Under the pieces are notes generated by a model, which was not told where the DNA came from, did not search any database, and saw only the letters and a program-made list of their open reading frames with translations. A program made the position numbers and the translations under genes. Below, in pieces: positions 10,984 through 61,521 of a stretch of DNA of 64,000 bases. Source of the DNA: Sporosarcina ureae DSM 2281. GTDB taxonomy: Bacteria; Bacillota; Bacilli; Bacillales_A; Planococcaceae. The first letter of the stretch is position 1; each line of letters starts with the position of its first letter. Location of the stretch: contig NZ_AUDQ01000010.1 of NCBI RefSeq assembly GCF_000425545.1, positions 62,001 through 126,000 on the forward strand. The letters are read 5' to 3'.

Positions 10984-12393
10984 TCACAATAGTTTTTCAT
11001 ATAATTGTTCACTTGATGAATTTAGCCCACGAATCGTGACTGCCATCCCTTTACTCTCGAGCTTAGTTATCACTTTTAAAATCGCACCCACTGCCGACTC
11101 ATCCCACAGCTGACTGTTTTCAAAATCAATGACAATCTGTTTTTCATTTATATTATCAAATGCCTGAATAAACTTCGTCGTAGAAGCAAAAAATAATGGA
11201 CCTTGTATTTTATAGATACCCTTTTCATTCGTTACCGAGACACGTGATATCTTCGCAACGAAGAATAATGCACTAAGGATAACTCCGATCACTACGCCTA
11301 TCGCTAAGTTATGCGTGTATAAAATCATTACTACAGTAATCAGCATAACAATCGATTCTGATCGGGGGGCGGAACGTAAAAATTTAAACGATCCCCAGTT
11401 AAAAGTCGTAGCCGCCACCATAACCATCACACCCGCAAGAACAGGCATTGGGATTTTGATGACCAAGTCCCCTAATACAATAATCAAAAACATTAAAAAT
11501 GCTCCAGCAGTCAATGTAGATAGCCGACCTCTACCACCTGATTTGATATTGATCACCGATTGACCGATCAGCGCACACCCCGCCATTCCACCGAAAAATC
11601 CAGTGATGAAGTTGGCAATACCTTGTCCGCGTGCTTCACGGTTTTTATTACTAGGTGTGTCCGTCATATCATCGAGCACTTGCGAAGTCAGTAGCGATTC
11701 AAGTAACCCTACAATAGAAAGGGCCAATGAATACGGTAAAATAATTTTCAGTGTTTCAAAATTCAGTGGGATATCAGGGAAGAAGAATGTTGGCAATGAA
11801 CTCGGCATTGTCCCCAAATCACCAATTGACTGCAATTTCACTCCACTGAACAGCGCAATTGCGGTCATAACAACAATCGCAATTAACGGAGCGGGTATCG
11901 CTGTGAAAAAACGCGGAACCGCATATACCAAAATCAATGTAGCGATCGCGAATACATACGTCATCGTACCTGAACCTACAAGGTAAGGTAGCTGTGTGAT
12001 AAAGATCATAATTCCTAACGCATTGACGAATCCAAGCATGACTGAATTCGGTATGAAGCGCATTAAATTCGCCACTCCTAGTGAGCCTAAAATTAATTGA
12101 ATAATACCCGTTAAGATAGTCGCTGCCAGTACATACTCTAGGCCATGATCCGCCATTAAACTAACTAGCACTAGTGCCATTGCACCCGTAGCAGCCGAGA
12201 TCAATCCGGGTCTACCTCCGACAAATGCAGTAATAACGGCAATAGTAAATGATGCATATAGCGCTACCCGTGGATCCACCCCGACGATAAACGCAAAAGC
12301 CAATGCTTCCGGTATGAGCGCGAGACCGACGACTATACCTGCCAATATATCCGCACGTACATTCCCAAACCATTGTTGTTGTAAAGTTTGCAT
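10984..12393 (-). CDS. SulP-family anion permease with STAS domain
   Basis: This 469-residue membrane protein has about 10-12 hydrophobic segments (residues 10-380) and a C-terminal STAS domain (about 385-465, with the IDFENSQLWDESAVGAI segment). The N-terminus DILAGIVVGLALIPEALAFAFIVGVDP and AATGAMALVLVSLMADHG are characteristic of SulP carriers, which move sulfate, bicarbonate or related anions, often with Na+ or H+. The sequence resembles the shorter bacterial branch that includes BicA-like bicarbonate carriers, but the substrate cannot be fixed by eye. It is co-transcribed with the downstream usp gene, and a divergent gene for a resolvase-like DNA-binding protein begins 107 bp away, a position typical of a local regulator. 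Confidence 0.88.
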   Translation of the reverse strand: MQTLQQQWFGNVRADILAGIVVGLALIPEALAFAFIVGVDPRVALYASFTIAVITAFVGGRPGLISAATGAMALVLVSLMADHGLEYVLAATILTGIIQLILGSLGVANLMRFIPNSVMLGFVNALGIMIFITQLPYLVGSGTMTYVFAIATLILVYAVPRFFTAIPAPLIAIVVMTAIALFSGVKLQSIGDLGTMPSSLPTFFFPDIPLNFETLKIILPYSLALSIVGLLESLLTSQVLDDMTDTPSNKNREARGQGIANFITGFFGGMAGCALIGQSVINIKSGGRGRLSTLTAGAFLMFLIIVLGDLVIKIPMPVLAGVMVMVAATTFNWGSFKFLRSAPRSESIVMLITVVMILYTHNLAIGVVIGVILSALFFVAKISRVSVTNEKGIYKIQGPLFFASTTKFIQAFDNINEKQIVIDFENSQLWDESAVGAILKVITKLESKGMAVTIRGLNSSSEQLYEKLL

Positions 12394-12500
12394 ATTTTTC
12401 TCCTCTCGTGATGTGAAAAAATCAACTCAATGTTAGAATGTACATAGCATATCATTTACAGTCCCATAAGTGAACAGTTTTGGGATGAAAGGAGTAAAAA

Positions 12501-13058
12501 ATGAAGTATGGATATATCCGCCCGATTGTAGGTGATCAGCAAACTACTGAACAACTAGCAAATCTTACTATAGACACGATTTATGTAGAATCACATGGAC
12601 TGGCTAAACAAAGAGTGGAGCTTGAACGACTACTAATGGATGTCCAAAGTGGAGACACATTGTACGTACAAAACATTGAAGTGTTAGCTGACTCGCTTCA
12701 GCAACTTTGGGATATTTTACGTTTGGCAGAACGTGATCAACTCATAATTAATTTTGTGGACGAACAGCTAACGAATCAAACTATGCAATCTACCACATTG
12801 CTGCAAAACGTAGAGTTTTTCGCAAAGCTGCAAACCACTTTTCTCAGTCATTCCTCTACATTTTCACTACAAGTTGCGAAACAACAAGGTAAAACAATTG
12901 GACGTCCACGAAAGTCTGATGATAACTTACAACGCGCATTTGAAATGTATGATAGTAAGAATTTCACTTTGTTCGATATCAAAGAAGAAACAGGTATTAG
13001 TAAATCAACACTCTATCGCTATTTGGATGAGAGAGCAGCATCGTATGATAAGCAGTAG
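12501..13058 (+). CDS. Serine-recombinase-like protein lacking catalytic residues
   Basis: This 185-residue protein has the architecture of a small resolvase/invertase. The N-terminal fold (1-120) includes KYGYIRPIVGDQQT and GDTLYVQNIEVLADS, and the C-terminus is a helix-turn-helix preceded by the usual GKTIGRPRKSDDN linker. In active enzymes the first motif reads YxRVSTxDQ and the second DRLxRS. Here the catalytic Ser is replaced (RPI in place of RVS) and both Arg positions of the DRLxR motif are lost (NIEVLAD). So it probably binds DNA but does not recombine it, and may have become a transcription regulator. It is divergent from the sulP-usp operon. AAAGGAG precedes the ATG. Alternatively, it is an old resolvase in decay, although the frame is intact. 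Confidence 0.75.
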   Translation: MKYGYIRPIVGDQQTTEQLANLTIDTIYVESHGLAKQRVELERLLMDVQSGDTLYVQNIEVLADSLQQLWDILRLAERDQLIINFVDEQLTNQTMQSTTLLQNVEFFAKLQTTFLSHSSTFSLQVAKQQGKTIGRPRKSDDNLQRAFEMYDSKNFTLFDIKEETGISKSTLYRYLDERAASYDKQ

Positions 13059-13230
13059 TTTTTCATCTGGTTAATTTTCTTTATCTGTAGTTTCAGTGTC
13101 ACTTGCTCAGATAGCAGAAGTATCAAGTATTAAAATGGTTTTTTATAATCAATTCATTCCTATTGTTTTTCTTATTAGAATTCCCTTCTGACGAACTCAA
13201 TTTGTACTTGCCCTATTTCATAAAAAGCGT

Positions 13231-13268
13231 AAAGTAGCCAGTGAAATAAATATTTCACTGGCTACTTT
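13231..13268. terminator. 18-bp perfect hairpin after the multicopper oxidase gene
   Basis: AAAGTAGCCAGTGAAATA and its perfect complement are separated by two bases. The hairpin lies 11 bp beyond the stop of the multicopper oxidase gene and is followed by ACGCTTTTTATG on the minus strand. It could serve both converging genes. Confidence 0.75.
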
Positions 13269-13279
13269 AGGCATCACTT

Positions 13280-14788
13280 TTATTTCACTTCTATTTGTCC
13301 CATCATCCCGTTGTCTTCATGCTCTAAAATATGACAATGAAACATATACACACCTTTATGCTTAAATTGTATGGCAATCTTCACTTTTTCTCCTGGATGA
13401 ATAGCAATTGTATCCTTCCATCCTTGTTCATACTCTTTAGGTTCTACTCCATCTCGTGAAACTATTTTAAACTGTGTTCCGTGAATGTGGAATGGGTGAA
13501 TCATACCACCCATCATATCTTTTTTATTATAGATCTCCCATACTTCTGTCACGCCTTGTTCTTGCGTAAAATCTATTCTTTCCGGATCAAATTTCTTTCC
13601 ATTTATCTCAACATGTTCCATCATACCAAAAAGCTCTATATTCTTCGTAACCGGCATATTTTCTTCTTCATCCGTTACGGCAAAATCATTTAGCTTCTCG
13701 GATGTTTTCAAACTATCCGCTTCTTGATTTGATACGTCAAACGGTAAAAGGATAGATCCATCTTCATTAATTAGAGACAAATCATTTGTAGAATTAAGTT
13801 GCGAGAAATCAATAATTATTTCCGCTCGTTCTGATGGTGTCAAAGTTACTTCATTCAATGTAACAGGTTCATTCAAGAAGCCACCATCTGTCGCAATTTG
13901 AACAAACGATTCACCTGTATTCAATTTGAATGTGAAATTTCTCGCGTTTGATCCATTTAGCAAGCGAAGACGCACTTGTTCTTTCTCTACTGGTAATACA
14001 GGATTTACTGTGCCGTTGACCAATAACGTATCGCCTATCGTTCCATCTTCGTTCATTACCGCTTTATAATCCAATTGGCCTTGCTCATCGAAAATTCGAT
14101 CTTGGAAAACTAAAGGTATATCATTTTTTCCGTATTCTTTAGGAATTTCTAATTTCGCTGAATTAGAATCCTCAATATAAATTAGCCCTGCAAGTCCTTT
14201 GTATACTTGTTCAGATGTCTTTCCCTCGGGATGTGGATGAAACCATAACGTAGCCGCTTCTTGTGTCACTTTAAATTCTATTTGTTCTTTTTCACCAGGA
14301 CTAAGTGTAGTATGCGGTCCGCCATCTGCTTCACCAGGCACTTCTAAACCATGCCAATGAAACGTTGTCTCTTGATCCAATTCATTGATTGTGTTAATTT
14401 TTATGGTTTCACCTTTTTTAAATTGAAGAACCGGACCTAACAGATCACCGTTATATCCCAAGGTTTCTGTAGTCATCCCATCAAGTATATCTACCTTACC
14501 TGTTTGCGCTTTAATAGTATATTCAGTTCTATCTGTCGCATCACTAGTTAGCAATGGTGGGATATTTAATTCATTTACACCTGTCGAGTCTTTTAAACTC
14601 ACTACATTGTCATGGCTCATATGTCCGTGTTCCATTGTAGAGTCATCCATCATGTGATGATTTCCTTCGTTGCTCTGTTGATTCATCATGTGTTGATTGT
14701 TCGGTTCATTCGATTGTGTATCGTTATTACAACCACTGACCAGTAGAAAACCCGTTAGAAGTATAATGGGTTGAATTTTTTTACTCAT
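13280..14788 (-). CDS. Multicopper oxidase lipoprotein
   Basis: This is an exported three-domain cupredoxin oxidase of 502 residues. The signal ends in a lipobox (LLVSGC, Cys at about 20). A Met/His-rich tail follows (HMMNQQ...HHMMDD...MEHGHMSHD), which resembles a copper-collecting segment. The type 2/3 copper ligands are seen in HWHGLEVPG, WFHPHPEG, HPFHIHG and HCHILEHEDNGMMG; the last also holds the type 1 Cys and an axial Met. It is thus most like CueO/CotA-type laccases or copper oxidases at the outer face of the membrane. I chose the ATG at 14788, with AAGGGGA in front; the longer frame upstream has no ribosome site. Likely roles are copper tolerance or oxidation of Mn or phenolics; the substrate is not settled. 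It has its own terminator. Confidence 0.9.
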   Translation of the reverse strand: MSKKIQPIILLTGFLLVSGCNNDTQSNEPNNQHMMNQQSNEGNHHMMDDSTMEHGHMSHDNVVSLKDSTGVNELNIPPLLTSDATDRTEYTIKAQTGKVDILDGMTTETLGYNGDLLGPVLQFKKGETIKINTINELDQETTFHWHGLEVPGEADGGPHTTLSPGEKEQIEFKVTQEAATLWFHPHPEGKTSEQVYKGLAGLIYIEDSNSAKLEIPKEYGKNDIPLVFQDRIFDEQGQLDYKAVMNEDGTIGDTLLVNGTVNPVLPVEKEQVRLRLLNGSNARNFTFKLNTGESFVQIATDGGFLNEPVTLNEVTLTPSERAEIIIDFSQLNSTNDLSLINEDGSILLPFDVSNQEADSLKTSEKLNDFAVTDEEENMPVTKNIELFGMMEHVEINGKKFDPERIDFTQEQGVTEVWEIYNKKDMMGGMIHPFHIHGTQFKIVSRDGVEPKEYEQGWKDTIAIHPGEKVKIAIQFKHKGVYMFHCHILEHEDNGMMGQIEVK

Positions 14789-32029: not shown

Positions 32030-32043
32030 TGTAATCGTTTACA
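32030..32043. promoter_or_regulatory. cre (CcpA) box upstream of tctC
   Basis: TGTAATCGTTTACA fits the cre consensus TGWNANCGNTNWCA at every position. It lies about 65 bp before the tctC start. It should bring the operon under carbon catabolite repression. Confidence 0.75.
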
Positions 32044-35417: not shown

Positions 35418-35431
35418 AGTAAGCGCTTTCA
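35418..35431. promoter_or_regulatory. cre-like box at the DAACS transcription start
   Basis: AGTAAGCGCTTTCA matches the cre consensus except the first base. It overlaps the expected transcription start, a position used for CcpA repression. Confidence 0.6.
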
Positions 35432-51510: not shown

Positions 51511-52158
51511 TTATTTGTTATTCCACTGATCGGTAAAAATTAAATCTTCTACACTTCGTCGTTTCTCCCAATTCGCTGTTTCCAATATAGGCGCAGTGGG
51601 ATAATTCTCCGTGTATCCAATAGATAAAAGAGCAATCGGTTCAACATGGGGGGGTATGTTCAAAATATCGCGCACATCATTCTTTTTATAAAAACTCACC
51701 CATCCCATCGCCAGGCCTTCCGCACATGCTGCTAGCCACATATTTTGAATTGCACAAGCAGTCGATAACATGTCCGTTTCAGGAATGGAGTTACGTCCTA
51801 ACACATGTGAACCGCCACGCGTAGGATCACATGTTACGCAAATAGTGATGGGTGCTTCTTTCAATCCTTGTATTTTTAAGCCAAGAAACTTTGTCTCTTT
51901 TTCTCCCTCGTCTTCATAATGAATCGCTAGCGCACGCCTTTCTTTATCGGCTGCCCAAGCCAACTTTTCTTTCGTTTCATCAGATGAAACGATGACGAAA
52001 TTCCATGGTTGCATGAAGCCAACTGAAGGTGCGTGATGAGCCGCTTTCAATATGTTATGCAGCTTATCCTCAGGAATGGGAGTCGGCAAAAAACTTCGCA
52101 CATCTCTTCTATTGTAAATCACTTTGTAGACCGCATCTTTTTCTTCTCTCGATAACAT
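51511..52158 (-). CDS. bluB: BluB-like nitroreductase family enzyme
   Basis: This 215-residue flavin enzyme follows BluB closely: FMN-binding YNRRDVRSFLP near the N-terminus, HHAPSVGFMQPWNFV, CDPTRGGSHVLGRNSIPETDMLSTACAIQNMWLAA and GLAMGWVSFYKK. BluB destroys FMN to make 5,6-dimethylbenzimidazole, the lower ligand of vitamin B12. The segment GGSHVLGR...PETD is particularly characteristic. No cobalamin genes are nearby, so a role in B12 assembly is inferred only from the family; some relatives may be ordinary nitroreductases. GGAGAGATG precedes the ATG. Confidence 0.83.
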   Translation of the reverse strand: MLSREEKDAVYKVIYNRRDVRSFLPTPIPEDKLHNILKAAHHAPSVGFMQPWNFVIVSSDETKEKLAWAADKERRALAIHYEDEGEKETKFLGLKIQGLKEAPITICVTCDPTRGGSHVLGRNSIPETDMLSTACAIQNMWLAACAEGLAMGWVSFYKKNDVRDILNIPPHVEPIALLSIGYTENYPTAPILETANWEKRRSVEDLIFTDQWNNK

Positions 52159-55688: not shown

Positions 55689-56162
55689 TTAAACTTTTAC
55701 TACCTCATTTGTTAGTTTTCCAAACTTCCCAGCGAAATAAGTCAAGGCATCTCCTTCATTATTTACGAAGTTCTGTACTTCACCCACGAATAACACATGA
55801 TCACCGCCATCATACTCTTGCCATGGCTTACATTCAATATAAGCCAGCGACTCTTTAAGGCGAGGAGCGTGTTCACCTTGAATCCAGTTAAAAGGTGCTA
55901 CCTCTTTCGGTCGTCCAGCAAAATGCATGGCAACATCCTCTTGAGAAGCATTTAAAATATTAACAGTAAATGCATTATTTTTCATATGTTCAAATGCTTT
56001 TGTTTTGCGGTCTACTGACACTAGTACGAGAGGAGGATCTAGTGATACGGAAGTAAATGAGTTCGCTGTTAATCCATGAGATCCATTTTCTGTTTTGCAC
56101 GTCACAACTGTTACGCCAGTTGCAAATTTCCCCATGCAGTTTCTAAATTCTTTAACATCCAT
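55689..56162 (-). CDS. Flavin reductase of a two-component monooxygenase
   Basis: This 157-residue protein is a flavin-reductase-domain (HpaC/PheA2) enzyme. Landmarks are MGKFATGVTVVTC, HGLTANSFTSVSLDPPLVLVSVDR, FTVNILNASQEDVAMHFAG and DHVLFVGEVQNF. It would reduce FAD or FMN with NADH and pass it to the monooxygenase encoded upstream in the same operon. Its length is that of PheA2 of thermophilic Bacilli. It is the last gene, 22 bp after the FAD synthetase gene. Confidence 0.9.
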   Translation of the reverse strand: MDVKEFRNCMGKFATGVTVVTCKTENGSHGLTANSFTSVSLDPPLVLVSVDRKTKAFEHMKNNAFTVNILNASQEDVAMHFAGRPKEVAPFNWIQGEHAPRLKESLAYIECKPWQEYDGGDHVLFVGEVQNFVNNEGDALTYFAGKFGKLTNEVVKV

Positions 56163-56184: not shown

Positions 56185-56736
56185 TTAATGTGAATTAGTT
56201 ATAGCATACGACTTCCTACCTAATAAGTAATAAGCTTGTTCTGCTTTTTGTTGTCTGAATAGTTCACGGATCCGTGTTGAGGAGATAACTTCACCTTTTG
56301 AACACGTAACTACAGGATGTTGAAATGCATTAAAATGTTTGGTTAAATCTTCAATCGAACCACTTTTCCCACTTCCAAAGTGAAAGCCAGGTCCAATCCA
56401 TATTTCTTTCGGATTAATTTTACTTAATTCATCGATAAAGTCTTGCACACTTCTTGACGCGTACACCTGATCAAACGGAGCGAAAACGGTATAGGAGACA
56501 CCTAACTCTTCAAGAAACTTTTTCTTTTCAGGTAGCGAAGTCAGCTTGGATTGATTTTGAAAATAAACTTTGGGTGGGGGATCAAATGTGTAAACAACTA
56601 GTGGTACCCCATAACGATCCGCTTGTGCCTTAGCTTGACTAATCAAAGCTTGATGTCCTCTATGAATCCCGTCAAATGCGCCAATCGTCACAATAGATTG
56701 ATTCAATTCTAGTTGATTGTCTTGAAAACAAATCAT
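56185..56736 (-). CDS. Single-domain FAD synthetase (RibF N-terminal type)
   Basis: This 183-residue protein corresponds to the N-terminal, FMN adenylyltransferase half of RibF. The nucleotidyltransferase motifs are GAFDGIHRGHQALI (the HxGH type) and ISSTRIRELFRQ. The riboflavin kinase domain that usually follows is missing, and the frame ends in a normal stop after YAITNSH. So it would make FAD from FMN but not FMN from riboflavin. It sits between the dioxygenase and the flavin reductase in a flavin monooxygenase operon, which suggests a dedicated FAD supply. The ATG has only a weak ribosome site (GAGGCGACT). Confidence 0.85.
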   Translation of the reverse strand: MICFQDNQLELNQSIVTIGAFDGIHRGHQALISQAKAQADRYGVPLVVYTFDPPPKVYFQNQSKLTSLPEKKKFLEELGVSYTVFAPFDQVYASRSVQDFIDELSKINPKEIWIGPGFHFGSGKSGSIEDLTKHFNAFQHPVVTCSKGEVISSTRIRELFRQQKAEQAYYLLGRKSYAITNSH

Positions 56737-56804: not shown

Positions 56805-57587
56805 TTATACAGTGCGCATTACAAAGTCTAGAGAGGAGACTTTACACCCGTCTTTTTCTTCGATCTTTGTCATTAAGTCTAAGCGAACACCGTCTGCTAC
56901 ATCTGTTTCCAACCATTCATCGCCTTCGAAAAATACTTGGGTAATTAGTGTTTCATGACCTTCTGCCTCAAACATTAAATGTAAGTGTGCTGGTCGCATC
57001 GGATGCTGATCCGTATATTCTAAAAATTCTCCTGTCGGTCCGTCAGTTGGAATTGAATACGGAAGAGGTACTATTGTTTTAACTTCAAAGTTTCCATTTT
57101 CATCTGTGTAAAAATGTCCTCTAAAATTATATTTTGGTGCCTCCGAATCAAATGCTGAATACTTACCAGAAGCATCATTTTGCCACATTTCTACTCTTGC
57201 TTTGGCAAGTGGTTCTCCATTTGTACTACTAACGTTTCCGCTAAAGTACATGACATCTCCAGCTTCATTAGGGCGTTGTGTCAATACAAGTGGTTGTCCC
57301 GGCTTAGCTTCGATGAGAGGCGTTCCTTCAACAAAATAGGGTCCTAATAGCGAAGGTTGCGTTCCAGGCTTGTCTGTATACATCGCTCTTAAAACATGAC
57401 TTTCTAAGAATACGTCCGCATAAAGTGGTAGTTCTCCAGCACGACCTAAGCGATCTGCCCAATCCACAAAGTTTGTATACTCTTCATGATTCAAGTTTGC
57501 TTCTTTTAAAAAGTTTTGTACATGTGCTATGAATAAGTTAAATACCTCTTCTACACGTTCATTTTTCTTTGATATTTGTTTTAACAT
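56805..57587 (-). CDS. catA: Intradiol ring-cleavage dioxygenase (catechol 1,2-dioxygenase type)
   Basis: This 260-residue enzyme has an N-terminal helical dimerisation domain and the beta-sandwich catalytic domain. Iron ligands appear as Tyr in LLGPYFVEGTPL, Tyr in PLPYSIPTDG and two His in RPAHLHL; the Arg in YNFRGHFYTDENG is also conserved. It would open catechol between the hydroxyls to cis,cis-muconate. A closely related family, hydroxyquinol 1,2-dioxygenase, has the same motifs and also occurs next to HpaB-like monooxygenases, so that is the chief alternative. I chose the ATG at 57587 because GAGGAGG stands 8 bases before it. It follows the monooxygenase gene by 42 bp. Confidence 0.85.
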   Translation of the reverse strand: MLKQISKKNERVEEVFNLFIAHVQNFLKEANLNHEEYTNFVDWADRLGRAGELPLYADVFLESHVLRAMYTDKPGTQPSLLGPYFVEGTPLIEAKPGQPLVLTQRPNEAGDVMYFSGNVSSTNGEPLAKARVEMWQNDASGKYSAFDSEAPKYNFRGHFYTDENGNFEVKTIVPLPYSIPTDGPTGEFLEYTDQHPMRPAHLHLMFEAEGHETLITQVFFEGDEWLETDVADGVRLDLMTKIEEKDGCKVSSLDFVMRTV

Positions 57588-57629
57588 TATAATTTCCTCC
57601 TCTATTTTACGTTTCACACTTTTAAAAAC

Positions 57630-59174
57630 TTACTTTTTTCCATAAGCATGTACATCGTCATTATTAATCCAAGTCGGATTGACCCAACCATCTAAATTGT
57701 AATCATCCATACATTTCTGTACAAAATCTTCAAACTTTTGTGCTTGACCACTAGCTTTTGCGGTTATTAAATTTTCCAAGCGTATATTTTCGTTGTTACC
57801 AGAATAATTTCTTTCATACAACTCGTGTCGACCGCCATATTCAGTTCCAATTGCATCCCAAAGTAACTTAATCACTTTGATCTTTTCTTCAGCTTCTATA
57901 CCGTTTGATCCACGGTATAATTTATCAATGATTGGGCGCAGTTCAGCATTTTTAAAATCAGCAGCACTAGACGGCTGCACAATTAAACTTCCCGCAACAA
58001 CTGTCTCTACAATATTTTTCACATGTGACCAACCATCAGACATGAACACACGATATGCCAAGCCATATTCTAGATTAGGTAAAACAGTATTGTTAGCTCC
58101 TTTTTCAGGATTCAATGCCATTGCATCACTCATTGCCCAAAACATATTACGATATGCAATGACTTCACCAATTTGGGCTTGGACACCGCGGAATGAATCC
58201 GTTCCATTCCCCCGTAATGCCTTAATAAGTAGACCTGAAATGAAGTCCAATTTCACGGCGAATCTTGTTACACCGTGGAAAGTTAAACGGTGAAGGAATC
58301 CACTTTCAGCAAAAAACGTATTCGCTTTTTCAATGTCTTTGTAAACTAACACGTTCTCCCATGGTATGAGAGCGTTCTCAAAAACTAGTACAGAATCATT
58401 TTCATCGAAGCGGCTACTAAGTGGATAGTCGAAAGGACTTCCTGTAACAGCTGCATTCATTTCATAAGATGCTCGACAGACTAATTTAATGCCTGGTGTA
58501 TTCATATCTGCGACGAAGACGAGTGCATATTCTTCGCTAGGAATTGCAAGTGCACCGTAGTGAGCAACGAAATTATAGTTTGTAAGTGCAGAACCTGTTG
58601 CAACCATCTTTGCACCACTCACTAAAATCCCTTCTTCCGTTTCACCTACCGCATGAATAAAGACATCTTTCACTTCGTCGATTGGCTTATCGCGATCAAC
58701 AGGAGGATTGATAATTGCATGGTTGAAGAACCAGTTTTTCTCTTGAACTTCTTTGTACCACCTTCTTGCATTGTCAGCGTACTCACCGTAATACTCTGGG
58801 TTTGCGCCTAACGTGGCTAAGAATGAAGCTTTATAATCTGGAGAACGTCCCATTTGTCCATAAGACATTTTGGCCCACTCCGCGATTGCATCCCGCGTTT
58901 TAAACAAATCTTCAGGTGTTTCATCTGGTACGAAGAAACGCTGTGTATATCCACCGTTACCAGTATCTGTTTCCCGTGTTAAAATCTCTTTATGTTTTGG
59001 ATCATGTAATGCATCATAAAGGCTAGCAATAGAGCGTGCACTATTTCTAAAGCCGGGATGAGTTGTTACGTCTTCTACTTTTTTCCCGTGTAGCCAAATT
59101 TCACGATTATCTCTTAAGCTCTCAAGGTATTCTGCTCCGGTCATAGGTAATCTAACTGCTTGTTTTACTGTCAT
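57630..59174 (-). CDS. Flavin-dependent phenol monooxygenase, HpaB/PheA1 family
   Basis: This 514-residue protein is a reduced-flavin-dependent monooxygenase of the HpaB/PheA1 family (acyl-CoA dehydrogenase fold). It begins with VRLPMTGAEYLESLRDNREIWLHGKKVEDVTTHPGF, and shows INPPVDRDKP, YNFVAHYGALAIPSEEYALVFVADMN, NDSVLVFENALIPWENVLVYKD and LHRLTFHGVTRFAVKLDF. It adds a hydroxyl ortho to a phenol and needs a separate reductase, which is at 55689. Together with the intradiol dioxygenase this best fits phenol hydroxylase (PheA1) of Bacillus/Geobacillus, about 500 residues. 4-Hydroxyphenylacetate, nitrophenol or chlorophenol are alternatives. AAGGGGGT precedes the ATG. Confidence 0.88.
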   Translation of the reverse strand: MTVKQAVRLPMTGAEYLESLRDNREIWLHGKKVEDVTTHPGFRNSARSIASLYDALHDPKHKEILTRETDTGNGGYTQRFFVPDETPEDLFKTRDAIAEWAKMSYGQMGRSPDYKASFLATLGANPEYYGEYADNARRWYKEVQEKNWFFNHAIINPPVDRDKPIDEVKDVFIHAVGETEEGILVSGAKMVATGSALTNYNFVAHYGALAIPSEEYALVFVADMNTPGIKLVCRASYEMNAAVTGSPFDYPLSSRFDENDSVLVFENALIPWENVLVYKDIEKANTFFAESGFLHRLTFHGVTRFAVKLDFISGLLIKALRGNGTDSFRGVQAQIGEVIAYRNMFWAMSDAMALNPEKGANNTVLPNLEYGLAYRVFMSDGWSHVKNIVETVVAGSLIVQPSSAADFKNAELRPIIDKLYRGSNGIEAEEKIKVIKLLWDAIGTEYGGRHELYERNYSGNNENIRLENLITAKASGQAQKFEDFVQKCMDDYNLDGWVNPTWINNDDVHAYGKK

Positions 59175-59194
59175 AAATATACCCCCTTATTTAT

Positions 59195-59208
59195 TGTAAC
59201 CGCTTACT
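59195..59208. promoter_or_regulatory. cre-like box upstream of the phenol monooxygenase gene
   Basis: TGTAACCGCTTACT deviates from the cre consensus only at the last base. It lies 21 bases before the monooxygenase ATG. Catabolite repression of the aromatic operon is plausible. Confidence 0.5.
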
Positions 59209-59334
59209 AATCTGAATATTACATGCTTTCTTGAAAGTTAGTAACTGTAAATATATATTAATAAATGATTAATGACTAGCAGTTTTTGTGGGTAGGATTG
59301 AACGTCCCTTTTAAATATTAGGTTTTACATACGC

Positions 59335-59366
59335 AAAAAAGACGAATCAATAATCGACTCGTCTTG
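59335..59366 (-). terminator. Terminator after the aromatic sensor gene
   Basis: AAGACGA and TCGTCTT form the outer stem with an inner AT-rich part, followed by TTTTTGCG on the minus strand. Confidence 0.75.
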
Positions 59367-59374
59367 GAATTTCA

Positions 59375-61165
59375 TTAACTTCCCATTACTTTTAAACCAA
59401 AGTAAATCCTCGTAGCCAATTGACCATTAAATCGACCTGATCCTGTTTTTAAATCGATGTCACTTAATGATTCTATCTTTTCAATACGATAGCGTAGACC
59501 TGCGATAGATAGATGTAAATCGTCTGCCGTCTGTTGAAGGTTACCGTTATTGTCTAAATATGATTTAAGCGTAATTAGCAAACTGCCTGAATTAGCTTCA
59601 TCATATTTAACTAAGCTGCCAATTGTTTTCATATAAAACATTAGAAGTTCCTCATGATCTGCGCCTTTCAAGAACATCATAATCCCTTCAAAGTCCTTAT
59701 AGGTTGCTTGTCTGCTGCTCACTGGATAAGTTAGCTGTACGAAATCACAAATTCGCTTTGCATCAACATAACTTTCCCGTAGCTTATAAACGGAATCTAC
59801 TAGACGTCCAGAACCTATATGCACAATGATATCTGGTAAACTTGCTTTAATATCATTCATCAACTTATCAGATATATTTTCAATATCCTGATCTTCAATT
59901 TTCGCGATAATAATGACGATATAATTATCTTTTAGAAACAAATCGAACGTAGGATGTTTATTCGTCAGAACATGCAATACTCTATCTTTCATTTTTTGCG
60001 GTATTACTTTAATCGCAATAATACGGTGAGGTTCGTTTATATTAAATCCAAATATTGCCGCCTGTCTATTTAATATATTCTCATCCATAATTTTATTTTC
60101 AATCATTTCATTAAAAAAATCCTCTCTTTTGCTCCAAAGGGATTCTGTTAACTTACGTTGGTGATACATTTGAATGGTAAAGACTAATAAGGCACGTTTA
60201 ATAATCATTTGTTCTCTTTGATTTAACTTCTGTTCTCCAATAACCATTAGATTACCGAGTAGCACTTTGTCACTCTTAATTAAGAATGATTCGAAGAATA
60301 ATTCGTTTTGTTGATTTGTAATGACACCGCTTGCTTTCCATTTCTTATATGCCATTTGTTCTTCTACACTTTCGAAGTACGACGAATAAACTTCATCGTA
60401 ATGATCAATAATGATGCTACGGCCGAGAATAGTACCAATCGTTTGTGTTATATCGTTAATATCTTTATCCTCTAAGAAAAGTTCTGTTAACTGATTTTGA
60501 ATCTCTTCTGATTCAATAATATTATTATTTAGCTGTTCTATTTCAGCATATATATCATCTAATACAGACTGCATTGATTCGCTTTGATAATAACGTAAGT
60601 CCAATAAATTTGTTTCATCGCAATGTGCTACAGTTTCAGCGACAAAATAACATTCAGCATCCCCTTTACCTCGGCAACTTTTCTCGTAAACGATTACTTC
60701 CTTATCGAAAACATATGTTAAGTAACCGCTCGCATAACCGATTAGCGTCCAGCAAACGGGCTCGTTTCCTATTTCATTTTCAGCTATGTGATTTGTAGAT
60801 TCAAAAGAATTTTTCCAATACCCCGTAAGATATAAATGATCATTATTAATTTCCAATATATCAGGGTCTACGGTCACAATTCCTTCTAATGTGTGCATGA
60901 CCGTTCCTGACAGCATCAGTTCTTCTATAGATTCCCAATCATATCTTTTTTTAATCGATTCAGCAGCCCGCTTACCACAGGCATAGCCATAGCGCATTAA
61001 AAAACCTTTGGTACGTTCTTTACCAAGCGTATCAATTAAATCATTACGCAATATTCCAAGCGCCTCTACTGAAATTAATCCCATTCTTTTATCATGAAGT
61101 TTAATAATCCCCGAACGAGGATTGATATCTAGCAAGTTTTGTAATATCAATTGATTAGCTTTCAT
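59375..61165 (-). CDS. Aromatic-sensing activator: XylR_N and V4R domains fused to a PucR-type HTH
   Basis: This 596-residue regulator starts with a XylR_N-like domain (about 1-115, with GFLMRYGYACGKRAAE) and a V4R domain (about 120-180) whose three cysteines, Cys138 (PVCW), Cys164 (KSCRGKG) and Cys172 (AECYF), have the layout of the zinc site of the phenol sensors DmpR and PoxR. A linker coiled coil (about 195-235), a GAF-like middle part and a PucR-type C-terminus follow, with the helix-turn-helix GNLQQTADDLHLSIAGLRYRIEKIE at about 545-570. The sigma-54 AAA+ domain of DmpR is absent. It should bind phenol or a relative and activate the monooxygenase operon directly downstream. I chose the ATG at 61165, with AAGGGAG ahead. 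Confidence 0.82.
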   Translation of the reverse strand: MKANQLILQNLLDINPRSGIIKLHDKRMGLISVEALGILRNDLIDTLGKERTKGFLMRYGYACGKRAAESIKKRYDWESIEELMLSGTVMHTLEGIVTVDPDILEINNDHLYLTGYWKNSFESTNHIAENEIGNEPVCWTLIGYASGYLTYVFDKEVIVYEKSCRGKGDAECYFVAETVAHCDETNLLDLRYYQSESMQSVLDDIYAEIEQLNNNIIESEEIQNQLTELFLEDKDINDITQTIGTILGRSIIIDHYDEVYSSYFESVEEQMAYKKWKASGVITNQQNELFFESFLIKSDKVLLGNLMVIGEQKLNQREQMIIKRALLVFTIQMYHQRKLTESLWSKREDFFNEMIENKIMDENILNRQAAIFGFNINEPHRIIAIKVIPQKMKDRVLHVLTNKHPTFDLFLKDNYIVIIIAKIEDQDIENISDKLMNDIKASLPDIIVHIGSGRLVDSVYKLRESYVDAKRICDFVQLTYPVSSRQATYKDFEGIMMFLKGADHEELLMFYMKTIGSLVKYDEANSGSLLITLKSYLDNNGNLQQTADDLHLSIAGLRYRIEKIESLSDIDLKTGSGRFNGQLATRIYFGLKVMGS

Positions 61166-61521
61166 CAAATTATCTCCCTTCATCTTCTTGACATTTCACA
61201 TACTCAAAACACATAATTTTGGTCCACTTCCTATAGTGATTTAAGGGACAGCCACAATGCATTTATACTTCAACACTCTTCGTATCATCAAATTTCGTTC
61301 ATAATCTTTTATTAAAGATACCTTATACTAATGACATTCAGTTTATTGTATTTATAAAGAAACGTAAACTAATAACCCCGATATATCTTATTCACATACT
61401 ATGCCAGTAACCAATAAGTCAACCAAAATAGCCAGCATGAGTCCAATTAAACATAGACTTCACACCAGCTAAATTGCATGTTTTATCAATGCCAATTAGT
61501 CAGCATTATCAAATTGATTAA
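61166..61521. other. Intergenic region between pcaF and the sensor gene
   Basis: About 355 AT-rich bases hold no recognisable gene. The promoter of the sensor gene must lie here; I cannot fix it. No strong hairpin follows pcaF, so read-through from pcaIJF into the sensor gene is possible. Confidence 0.4.

Follow-up and report, generated by a model that had tools for sequence, protein, structure and literature searches.

The regulator gene described here lies within a 64,000-nt stretch of DNA from the soil bacterium Sporosarcina ureae DSM 2281 (assembly GCF_000425545.1, contig NZ_AUDQ01000010.1, positions 62,001-126,000), the whole of which is referred to as the "window" in this study. Its product is a well-preserved member of the usual family of phenol regulators in Bacillota, a kind that is known but has hardly been studied. 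Judging from the sequence and its surroundings, this protein is quite probably a PheR-type, phenol-activated activator of the sigma A type that acts on the operon downstream of it, with the operon being under catabolite control. What goes beyond the reports that we found in print is the uniform PucR-type output in the phylum sample, the retention of the phenol pocket together with its zinc site, a GAF-like domain as a likely relay, and a predicted operator.

The 596-residue reading frame starts at ATG 61165, with GGGAG located 8 nt upstream. An alternative start at 61183 is possible and would give a 602-residue form; in four relatives the alignment begins at MKAN. In the numbering of the 602-residue form, Pfam places XylR_N at residues 14-112, V4R at 125-183, GGDEF_2 at 367-478 and HTH_30 at 535-593, each above its gathering score (E-values in Table 1). 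A phmmer search against the PDB matched residues 15-225 to MopR (3e-30), CapR/DmpR (2.5e-29) and PoxR (2.6e-27). Pfam gave no match to an AAA+ module in the regulator, and NCBIfam gave only partial matches below the cut-offs, chiefly MobR (residues 18-231 of the 602-residue form) and AdeR (310-584). The sequence-only reading had described an N-terminus resembling XylR_N and V4R, and a C-terminus with a PucR-like helix-turn-helix in place of a sigma-54 AAA+ module; the three profiles that it named (XylR_N, V4R and HTH_30) bear this out. A full-length structure model, built from 5 sequences, had a mean pLDDT of only 51, and its sensor part was not used.

Table 1. Features of the regulator gene, the operon behind it and the gap between them (positions within the window; residues of the 596-residue form)
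Feature	Positions	Strand	Basis
Regulator gene, 596 aa, XylR_N-V4R-GAF-like-GGDEF_2-HTH_30 (PheR type)	59375-61165	minus	ORF, Pfam, PDB phmmer, homologues
XylR_N domain, residues 8-106, contains phenol-hydroxyl residue H91	60848-61144	minus	Pfam 1.6e-28; alignment to MopR H106
V4R domain, residues 119-177; zinc ligands C138, E161, C164, C172; W117 just ahead	60635-60811	minus	Pfam 1.6e-11
Helical linker, residues 199-234, at DmpR B-linker position	60464-60571	minus	single long helix in model of residues 200-356
GAF-like domain, residues about 236-330	60176-60460	minus	family profile, model, Foldseek
GGDEF_2 (CdaR/PucR-type) domain, residues 361-472	59750-60085	minus	Pfam 2.9e-11
HTH_30, PucR-type DNA-binding domain, residues 529-587	59405-59581	minus	Pfam 3e-15
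Intrinsic terminator behind regulator gene	59339-59365	minus	12-bp stem followed by TTTT; shuffled sequences give 0.1 on average
Predicted operator; core TGCTAGT-N23-TTTRCAGTT at 59243-59281	59235-59290	minus	conservation, matrix scan, genus pattern search
Weak -35 candidate TTACTA, overlapping operator right end	59239-59244	minus	17-nt spacer; three of six positions
Predicted -10 box TAATAT	59216-59221	minus	conserved 20-21 nt behind CAGTT; our own reading of the hexamer
cre-like site AGTAAGCGGTTACA between -10 box and ribosome site	59195-59208	minus	conserved in orthologues; 1 mismatch to consensus
HpaB-type flavin-dependent monooxygenase, presumed phenol hydroxylase oxygenase	57630-59174	minus	PF11794 1.4e-92, PF03241 1.9e-64
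Intradiol catechol 1,2-dioxygenase-like	56805-57617	minus	PF00775 2.4e-45
FAD-synthetase-like protein	56185-56736	minus	PF06574 3.6e-37
Flavin reductase, presumed monooxygenase partner	55689-56162	minus	PF01613 4.5e-42

Alignment to MopR places its zinc ligands C155, E178, C181 and C189 opposite C138, E161, C164 and C172 of the regulator, and its phenol contacts H106 and W134 opposite H91 and W117. The MopR numbers given here are consistent with the numbering of the aligned MopR chain in the PDB search. The zinc-site spacing of the three cysteines had been noticed from the letters alone and agrees with this alignment; the fourth zinc ligand, E161, and the phenol residues H91 and W117 are added here. 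The zinc ligands are conserved in all 77 full-length Bacillota homologues described below, and H91 and W117 are each conserved in 76 of the 77, with one protein (L122) being the exception for both. At some other pocket positions the residues are unlike those of MopR (F99 is replaced by M84, F132 by G115 and Y176 by V159), and the ligand may thus be another phenolic. The roles of the DmpR counterparts of the zinc and pocket residues are given in passages of PMC7264223, where the glutamate is printed as 172; according to the same passages, the pocket histidine is common to DmpR, PoxR and MopR, and XylR, a toluene/xylene regulator, has a tyrosine there.

As had been stated from the sequence alone, the regulator gene lies directly ahead of an operon for a phenol-type monooxygenase and ring cleavage (the last four rows of Table 1). 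On its other side are genes for a thiolase (Pfam) and a CoA-transferase subunit (NCBIfam). At least one of nine aromatic-catabolism markers was found within 7.5 kb of 61 of the 77 homologues, whereas among 20 control stretches (15 kb each, placed at round coordinates in 16 surveyed genomes) 1 had such a marker; the marker queries were drawn from the window, L095 and L096, so that these three are positive by construction, and some of the scanned loci end at contig edges. None of the nine markers was found within 7.5 kb in the other 16 homologues. For 13 of these (12 loci, without L079, L081 and L133), Pfam analysis of 17 neighbouring proteins revealed no common theme: aldehyde dehydrogenase, CoA-transferase, amidases, a TRAP binding protein, ABC, MFS, cytochrome oxidase, hydrogenase and others were present, and 3 proteins were unmatched.

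It is possible, though somewhat unlikely, that the effector is a substituted phenol, a hydroxylated aromatic acid or the product catechol rather than phenol. The oxygenase is of the HpaB type, for which the NCBIfam models are named for 4-hydroxyphenylacetate (681.9 bits versus a cut-off of 885.2), and the pocket substitutions listed above point the same way. However, both residues that hold the phenol hydroxyl are retained, the next gene in the operon encodes an intradiol catechol dioxygenase, and in P. thermoglucosidasius the phenol hydroxylase proposed in passages of PMC8696081, PheA, is a two-component enzyme of the HpaB type.

Some other arrangements around such regulators deserve mention. 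One locus without an aromatic marker carries two XylR_N/PucR-type regulators about 6 kb apart (L121:4432-6393 and 12338-14263), with amidase genes and a gene for a TRAP-type binding protein between or beside them. In S. limicola, a 289-residue protein with a methyl-accepting chemotaxis signalling domain is encoded between the regulator and the hpaB-like gene (L097:8942-9808), possibly tying phenol breakdown to taxis. The window itself also encodes BluB (5,6-dimethylbenzimidazole synthase; 51511-52158, minus strand), which scored above the NCBIfam equivalog cut-off.

Between the sensor and the output, the helical linker occupies the position of the DmpR B-linker, the role of which is described in passages of PMC7264223. 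The following residues (236-330) gave no Pfam family above the gathering score. A profile of the 77 homologues, when compared with PDB chains, matched SpoVT (6.7e-5) and CodY (8.6e-5) through this middle domain, and Rv2242 (9f80; 6e-9) and 3onq (3.6e-6) through the C-terminal half. A model of residues 200-356 had a pLDDT of 80, and Foldseek returned CodY chains at the top (E 6.2e-5, TM 0.62), with identities of 14% or less in the CodY rows. Pfam recognized GAF in 2, GAF_2 in 2 and SpoVT_C in 6 of the 77 homologues. The profile and the model are consistent with a CodY-like GAF domain that is likely part of the signal relay. We consider a more far-reaching version doubtful, namely a two-input switch in which the phenol sensor and the CodY-like GAF domain would both feed the PucR-type output, with the operon firing on an aromatic plus a second cytoplasmic nutrient signal; compared with the DmpR mechanism, such a switch would act directly and without an ATPase, and it would have become fixed a single time, at the base of the Bacillota family.

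The architecture is no exception. It was found in all 77 full-length Bacillota homologues examined, and a PucR-type output is the usual arrangement among these relatives as judged from their domains. The survey searched whole genomes for the Pfam family XylR_N, so that proteins were selected by the sensor and not by the output. XylR_N was present in 12 of 68 genomes of the genus, 43 of 398 of the class sample (41 over the family cut-off) and 7 of 299 of the phylum sample, with the three samples overlapping and the window's genome in each; it was found in none of 14 control genomes, B. subtilis included. The 77 full-length reading frames comprise 74 from the genome survey, two from plasmid records and the one in the window. 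Excluded were six partial reading frames (L005, L088 (twice), L089, L131 and one of L134), three fragments from G125 (L015-L017), L116 (a weak match for which the search gave no reading frame), and G635 and G687, which were below the cut-off.

Among the 77 homologues, HTH_30 and V4R were matched in all, and XylR_N and GGDEF_2 in 76 each; the 10 families with matches at E 0.001 do not include an AAA+ family. Neither a Walker A motif nor GAFTGA/GAYTGA occurred in any of the 77, the window protein included. Of 11 proteobacterial regulators encoded on plasmids, 10 have the same motifs, the exception being a Pseudosulfitobacter protein that has neither (a stricter GAFTGA expression matched only 4 of the 11). 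A maximum likelihood tree (quick method) was made from 91 sensor domains, 77 of the PucR type and 14 proteobacterial (11 plasmid, 3 PDB; a small sample that includes the Pseudosulfitobacter protein). One branch splits the 77 from the 14 (SH-aLRT 99, one label change), although several branches are long. This split fits a single exchange of the output half, in either direction. When the tree is drawn with a midpoint root, the PucR-type sensors placed with the proteobacterial ones are those of three proteins from outside the window's class (L091, L092 and L093, 668-812 aa), which retain the zinc ligands, the histidine and the tryptophan, and have none of the nine aromatic markers nearby.

In the gap before the hpaB-like gene, an alignment of Sporosarcina sequences is poorly alike in its left part, and sharp conservation starts at CnCAAAAACTGCTAGT, which is followed by the conserved blocks TTTRCAGTTAC, TGTAATATT and AGTAAGCGRTTACA. 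A matrix built from 9 sites was scanned over 26 sources and yielded five sites outside the training set, with scores of 71.0, 35.1, 32.9, 22.0 and 19.3; the highest score elsewhere in these sources was 12.0, and 20 mononucleotide shuffles of the window reached 11.9 at most. The highest score belongs to L098 of the same genus, and the second to another copy in S. limicola, located before the FAD synthetase gene (L097:12688), where the -10-like box also recurs together with a cre-like site. The other three lie before an hpaB-like gene in L067, L095 and L069 (32.9, 22.0 and 19.3). The regulators of these loci share 61, 50 and 52% identity with that of the window, respectively; the left half of the operator is weak in L095 and L069. 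No site was found in L068 (regulator 47% identical, with an hpaB-like gene behind it; best score -5.0), the best score in L114 (38% identical) was only 8.5, and L096, with its PheR-like regulator, gave -3.0. Because of these absent or low-scoring sites, the predicted operator seems to be confined to a close subgroup of the regulators.

The exact pattern TGCTAGT-N23-TTTRCAGTT was found at 11 places in 10 of the 68 genus genomes, compared to 0 for a reversed control pattern. Those 10 are the genomes that carry this regulator subtype; the other 58 do not have the pattern, being G317 and G365, which have distant relatives only, and 56 genomes without XylR_N. Since the pattern was designed from these ten genomes, its presence in them is by construction; information comes only from its absence elsewhere, from the lack of further sites and from the additional copy in S. 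limicola. Nine of the ten genomes have just one site, which suggests that the regulator is local and dedicated. A wider regulon in the genome of S. ureae was also sought by allowing up to 3 mismatches, with 73 forward and 62 reverse hits versus 80 and 90 for the control pattern, so that this search, unlike that with the exact two-part pattern over the genus, did not discriminate; thus, a regulon beyond the hpaB-like operon is not supported, apart from the extra exact match that S. limicola has ahead of its FAD synthetase gene.

The intrinsic terminator lies between the regulator gene and the operon, which therefore needs its own promoter. The predicted -35 element is weak, resembling what activator-dependent promoters often show, and it overlaps the right end of the operator. 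A promoter scanner proposed another promoter-like pair on the same strand inside the operator (59278-59250), but this pair is not conserved. The overlap with the presumed -35 would also suit a ligand-relieved repressor, in which case the regulator would cover the -35 region and block the operon when phenol is absent. We consider this quite improbable, as a weak, non-consensus -35 is what activator-dependent promoters have, and XylR_N regulators such as DmpR are mostly activators. PucR-type regulators are mostly activators as well.

The conserved -10-like box, and a -24/-12 search in which the best site on the minus strand of 59175-59374 has 4 mismatches at 11 fixed positions, point to an output that is probably of the sigma A type, even though the genome encodes sigma-54 (PF04552, 3.6e-60). 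The absence of sigma-54 can therefore not explain the different output, and its presence is the one point in favour of a regulator that still works with sigma-54 in some unusual manner, which is highly improbable given that there is no AAA+ match in the regulator, no Walker A or GAFTGA/GAYTGA in the homologues and no good -24/-12 site before the operon.

Against the cre consensus with which AGTAAGCGGTTACA was scored, 19 matches with at most 1 mismatch occur in the window on both strands; since such sites are not rare, the weight of AGTAAGCGGTTACA comes from its conservation. Further cre-like sites in the window at 32030-32043 and 35418-35431 each have 2 mismatches to AGTAAGCGRTTACA, and the former is a near-perfect palindrome, TGTAAACGATTACA.

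In the phenol-activated reading that we prefer, phenol or a close relative would bind to a dimer of the N-terminal XylR_N/V4R part, held by H91 and W117 beside a Cys3Glu zinc site. The bound state would be passed through the helical linker and the CodY-like GAF domain to GGDEF_2 and HTH_30. A regulator dimer may then hold the bipartite operator with its right end over the weak -35, and would recruit RNA polymerase with the vegetative sigma A for transcription of the four operon genes, from the hpaB-like gene through those for catechol dioxygenase and FAD synthetase to that for flavin reductase. The cre-like site behind the promoter could let CcpA close the operon when a better carbon source is present. 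As the aromatic sensor domain presumably works here without an AAA+ ATPase, one ligand signal can be compared between two kinds of output, and the predicted operator makes a sigma A-type phenol biosensor for Bacillus hosts directly testable.

The sequence-only reading knew of no characterised member with this architecture, though it allowed for annotated ones in related genomes. However, PheR, a 642-residue protein of the phe operon of Geobacillus stearothermophilus DSM6285 (Omokoko et al. 2008, PMC2590616), very probably shares the XylR_N/V4R plus PucR-type architecture. No paper joining XylR_N or V4R with PucR was found in the open literature searched. Phenol sensing in Gram-positive bacteria has been little studied, and in its abstract, Discussion and other passages the 2008 paper calls PheR the first regulator of phenol metabolism from a Gram-positive bacterium, notes that its sub-domains are unlike those of DmpR and XylR, and leaves its mode of regulation open. 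PheR is encoded in a phenol operon, the transcript of which was detected in phenol-grown cells; those same parts of the paper do not describe an operator, and the words "PucR" and "helix-turn-helix" are absent from it. Later papers (2009 on) with PheR, Geobacillus and phenol were not found in the open literature searched. At the corresponding position of a P. thermoglucosidasius plasmid locus, a gene is labelled pucR in passages of PMC8696081, and plasmid records label such proteins "XylR N-terminal domain-containing protein".

PheR (deposited as DQ146476) is represented here by the regulator of the P. thermoglucosidasius plasmid locus L096, which is among the 77 homologues, the likeness resting on a gene order that matches the PheR locus and on the length of 642 residues. 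The L096 regulator is 27% identical to that of the window over residues 26-590. PheR and the window's regulator are both Bacillota regulators beside phenol hydroxylase genes. However, PheR is located within a meta-cleavage operon and is co-transcribed with it, whereas the gene in the window has a terminator behind it and precedes an ortho-cleavage operon with its own predicted promoter.

When compared with DmpR (CapR), MopR, PoxR and XylR, the regulator has the same sensor, zinc site, His/Trp phenol contacts (XylR having Tyr for His) and helical linker after the sensor, but the output of those proteins is an AAA+ ATPase with a Fis-type helix-turn-helix, while here it consists of the GAF-like, GGDEF_2 and HTH_30 domains. 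Of the features of the DmpR/XylR class it thus has the sensor, and lacks the AAA+ module (Walker A, GAFTGA) and a good -24/-12 target promoter. As in the PheR-type class, XylR_N and V4R are followed by GGDEF_2 and HTH_30 in one chain, and the gene adjoins phenol/catechol catabolism genes. Its C-terminal 250 residues (GGDEF_2 and HTH_30) resemble the PucR/CdaR family, with AdeR being the best NCBIfam match in this part and Rv2242 and 3onq being relatives of solved structure; it differs from that family by the XylR_N/V4R sensor as its N-terminal half. The GAF domains of CodY and SpoVT are like the middle domain by profile, and that of CodY also by predicted fold, but their positions and outputs differ.

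The genome of S. ureae encodes a second XylR_N/PucR-type regulator of 633 residues on another contig (L112:4630-6531, contig C22), which is flanked by a further catechol 1,2-dioxygenase-like gene and, directly after it, by a flavin reductase gene. The operator described above was not found beside this gene or that of its nearest relative, with matrix scores of -1.1 (L112) and 0.2 (L111), and in the tree a separate branch holds the sensors of its Sporosarcina group. A 117-residue reading frame (L007:1814-2167), with no Pfam match at E 1e-5, overlaps the start of the C22 regulator, and several Sporosarcina species have similar DNA ahead of the regulator.
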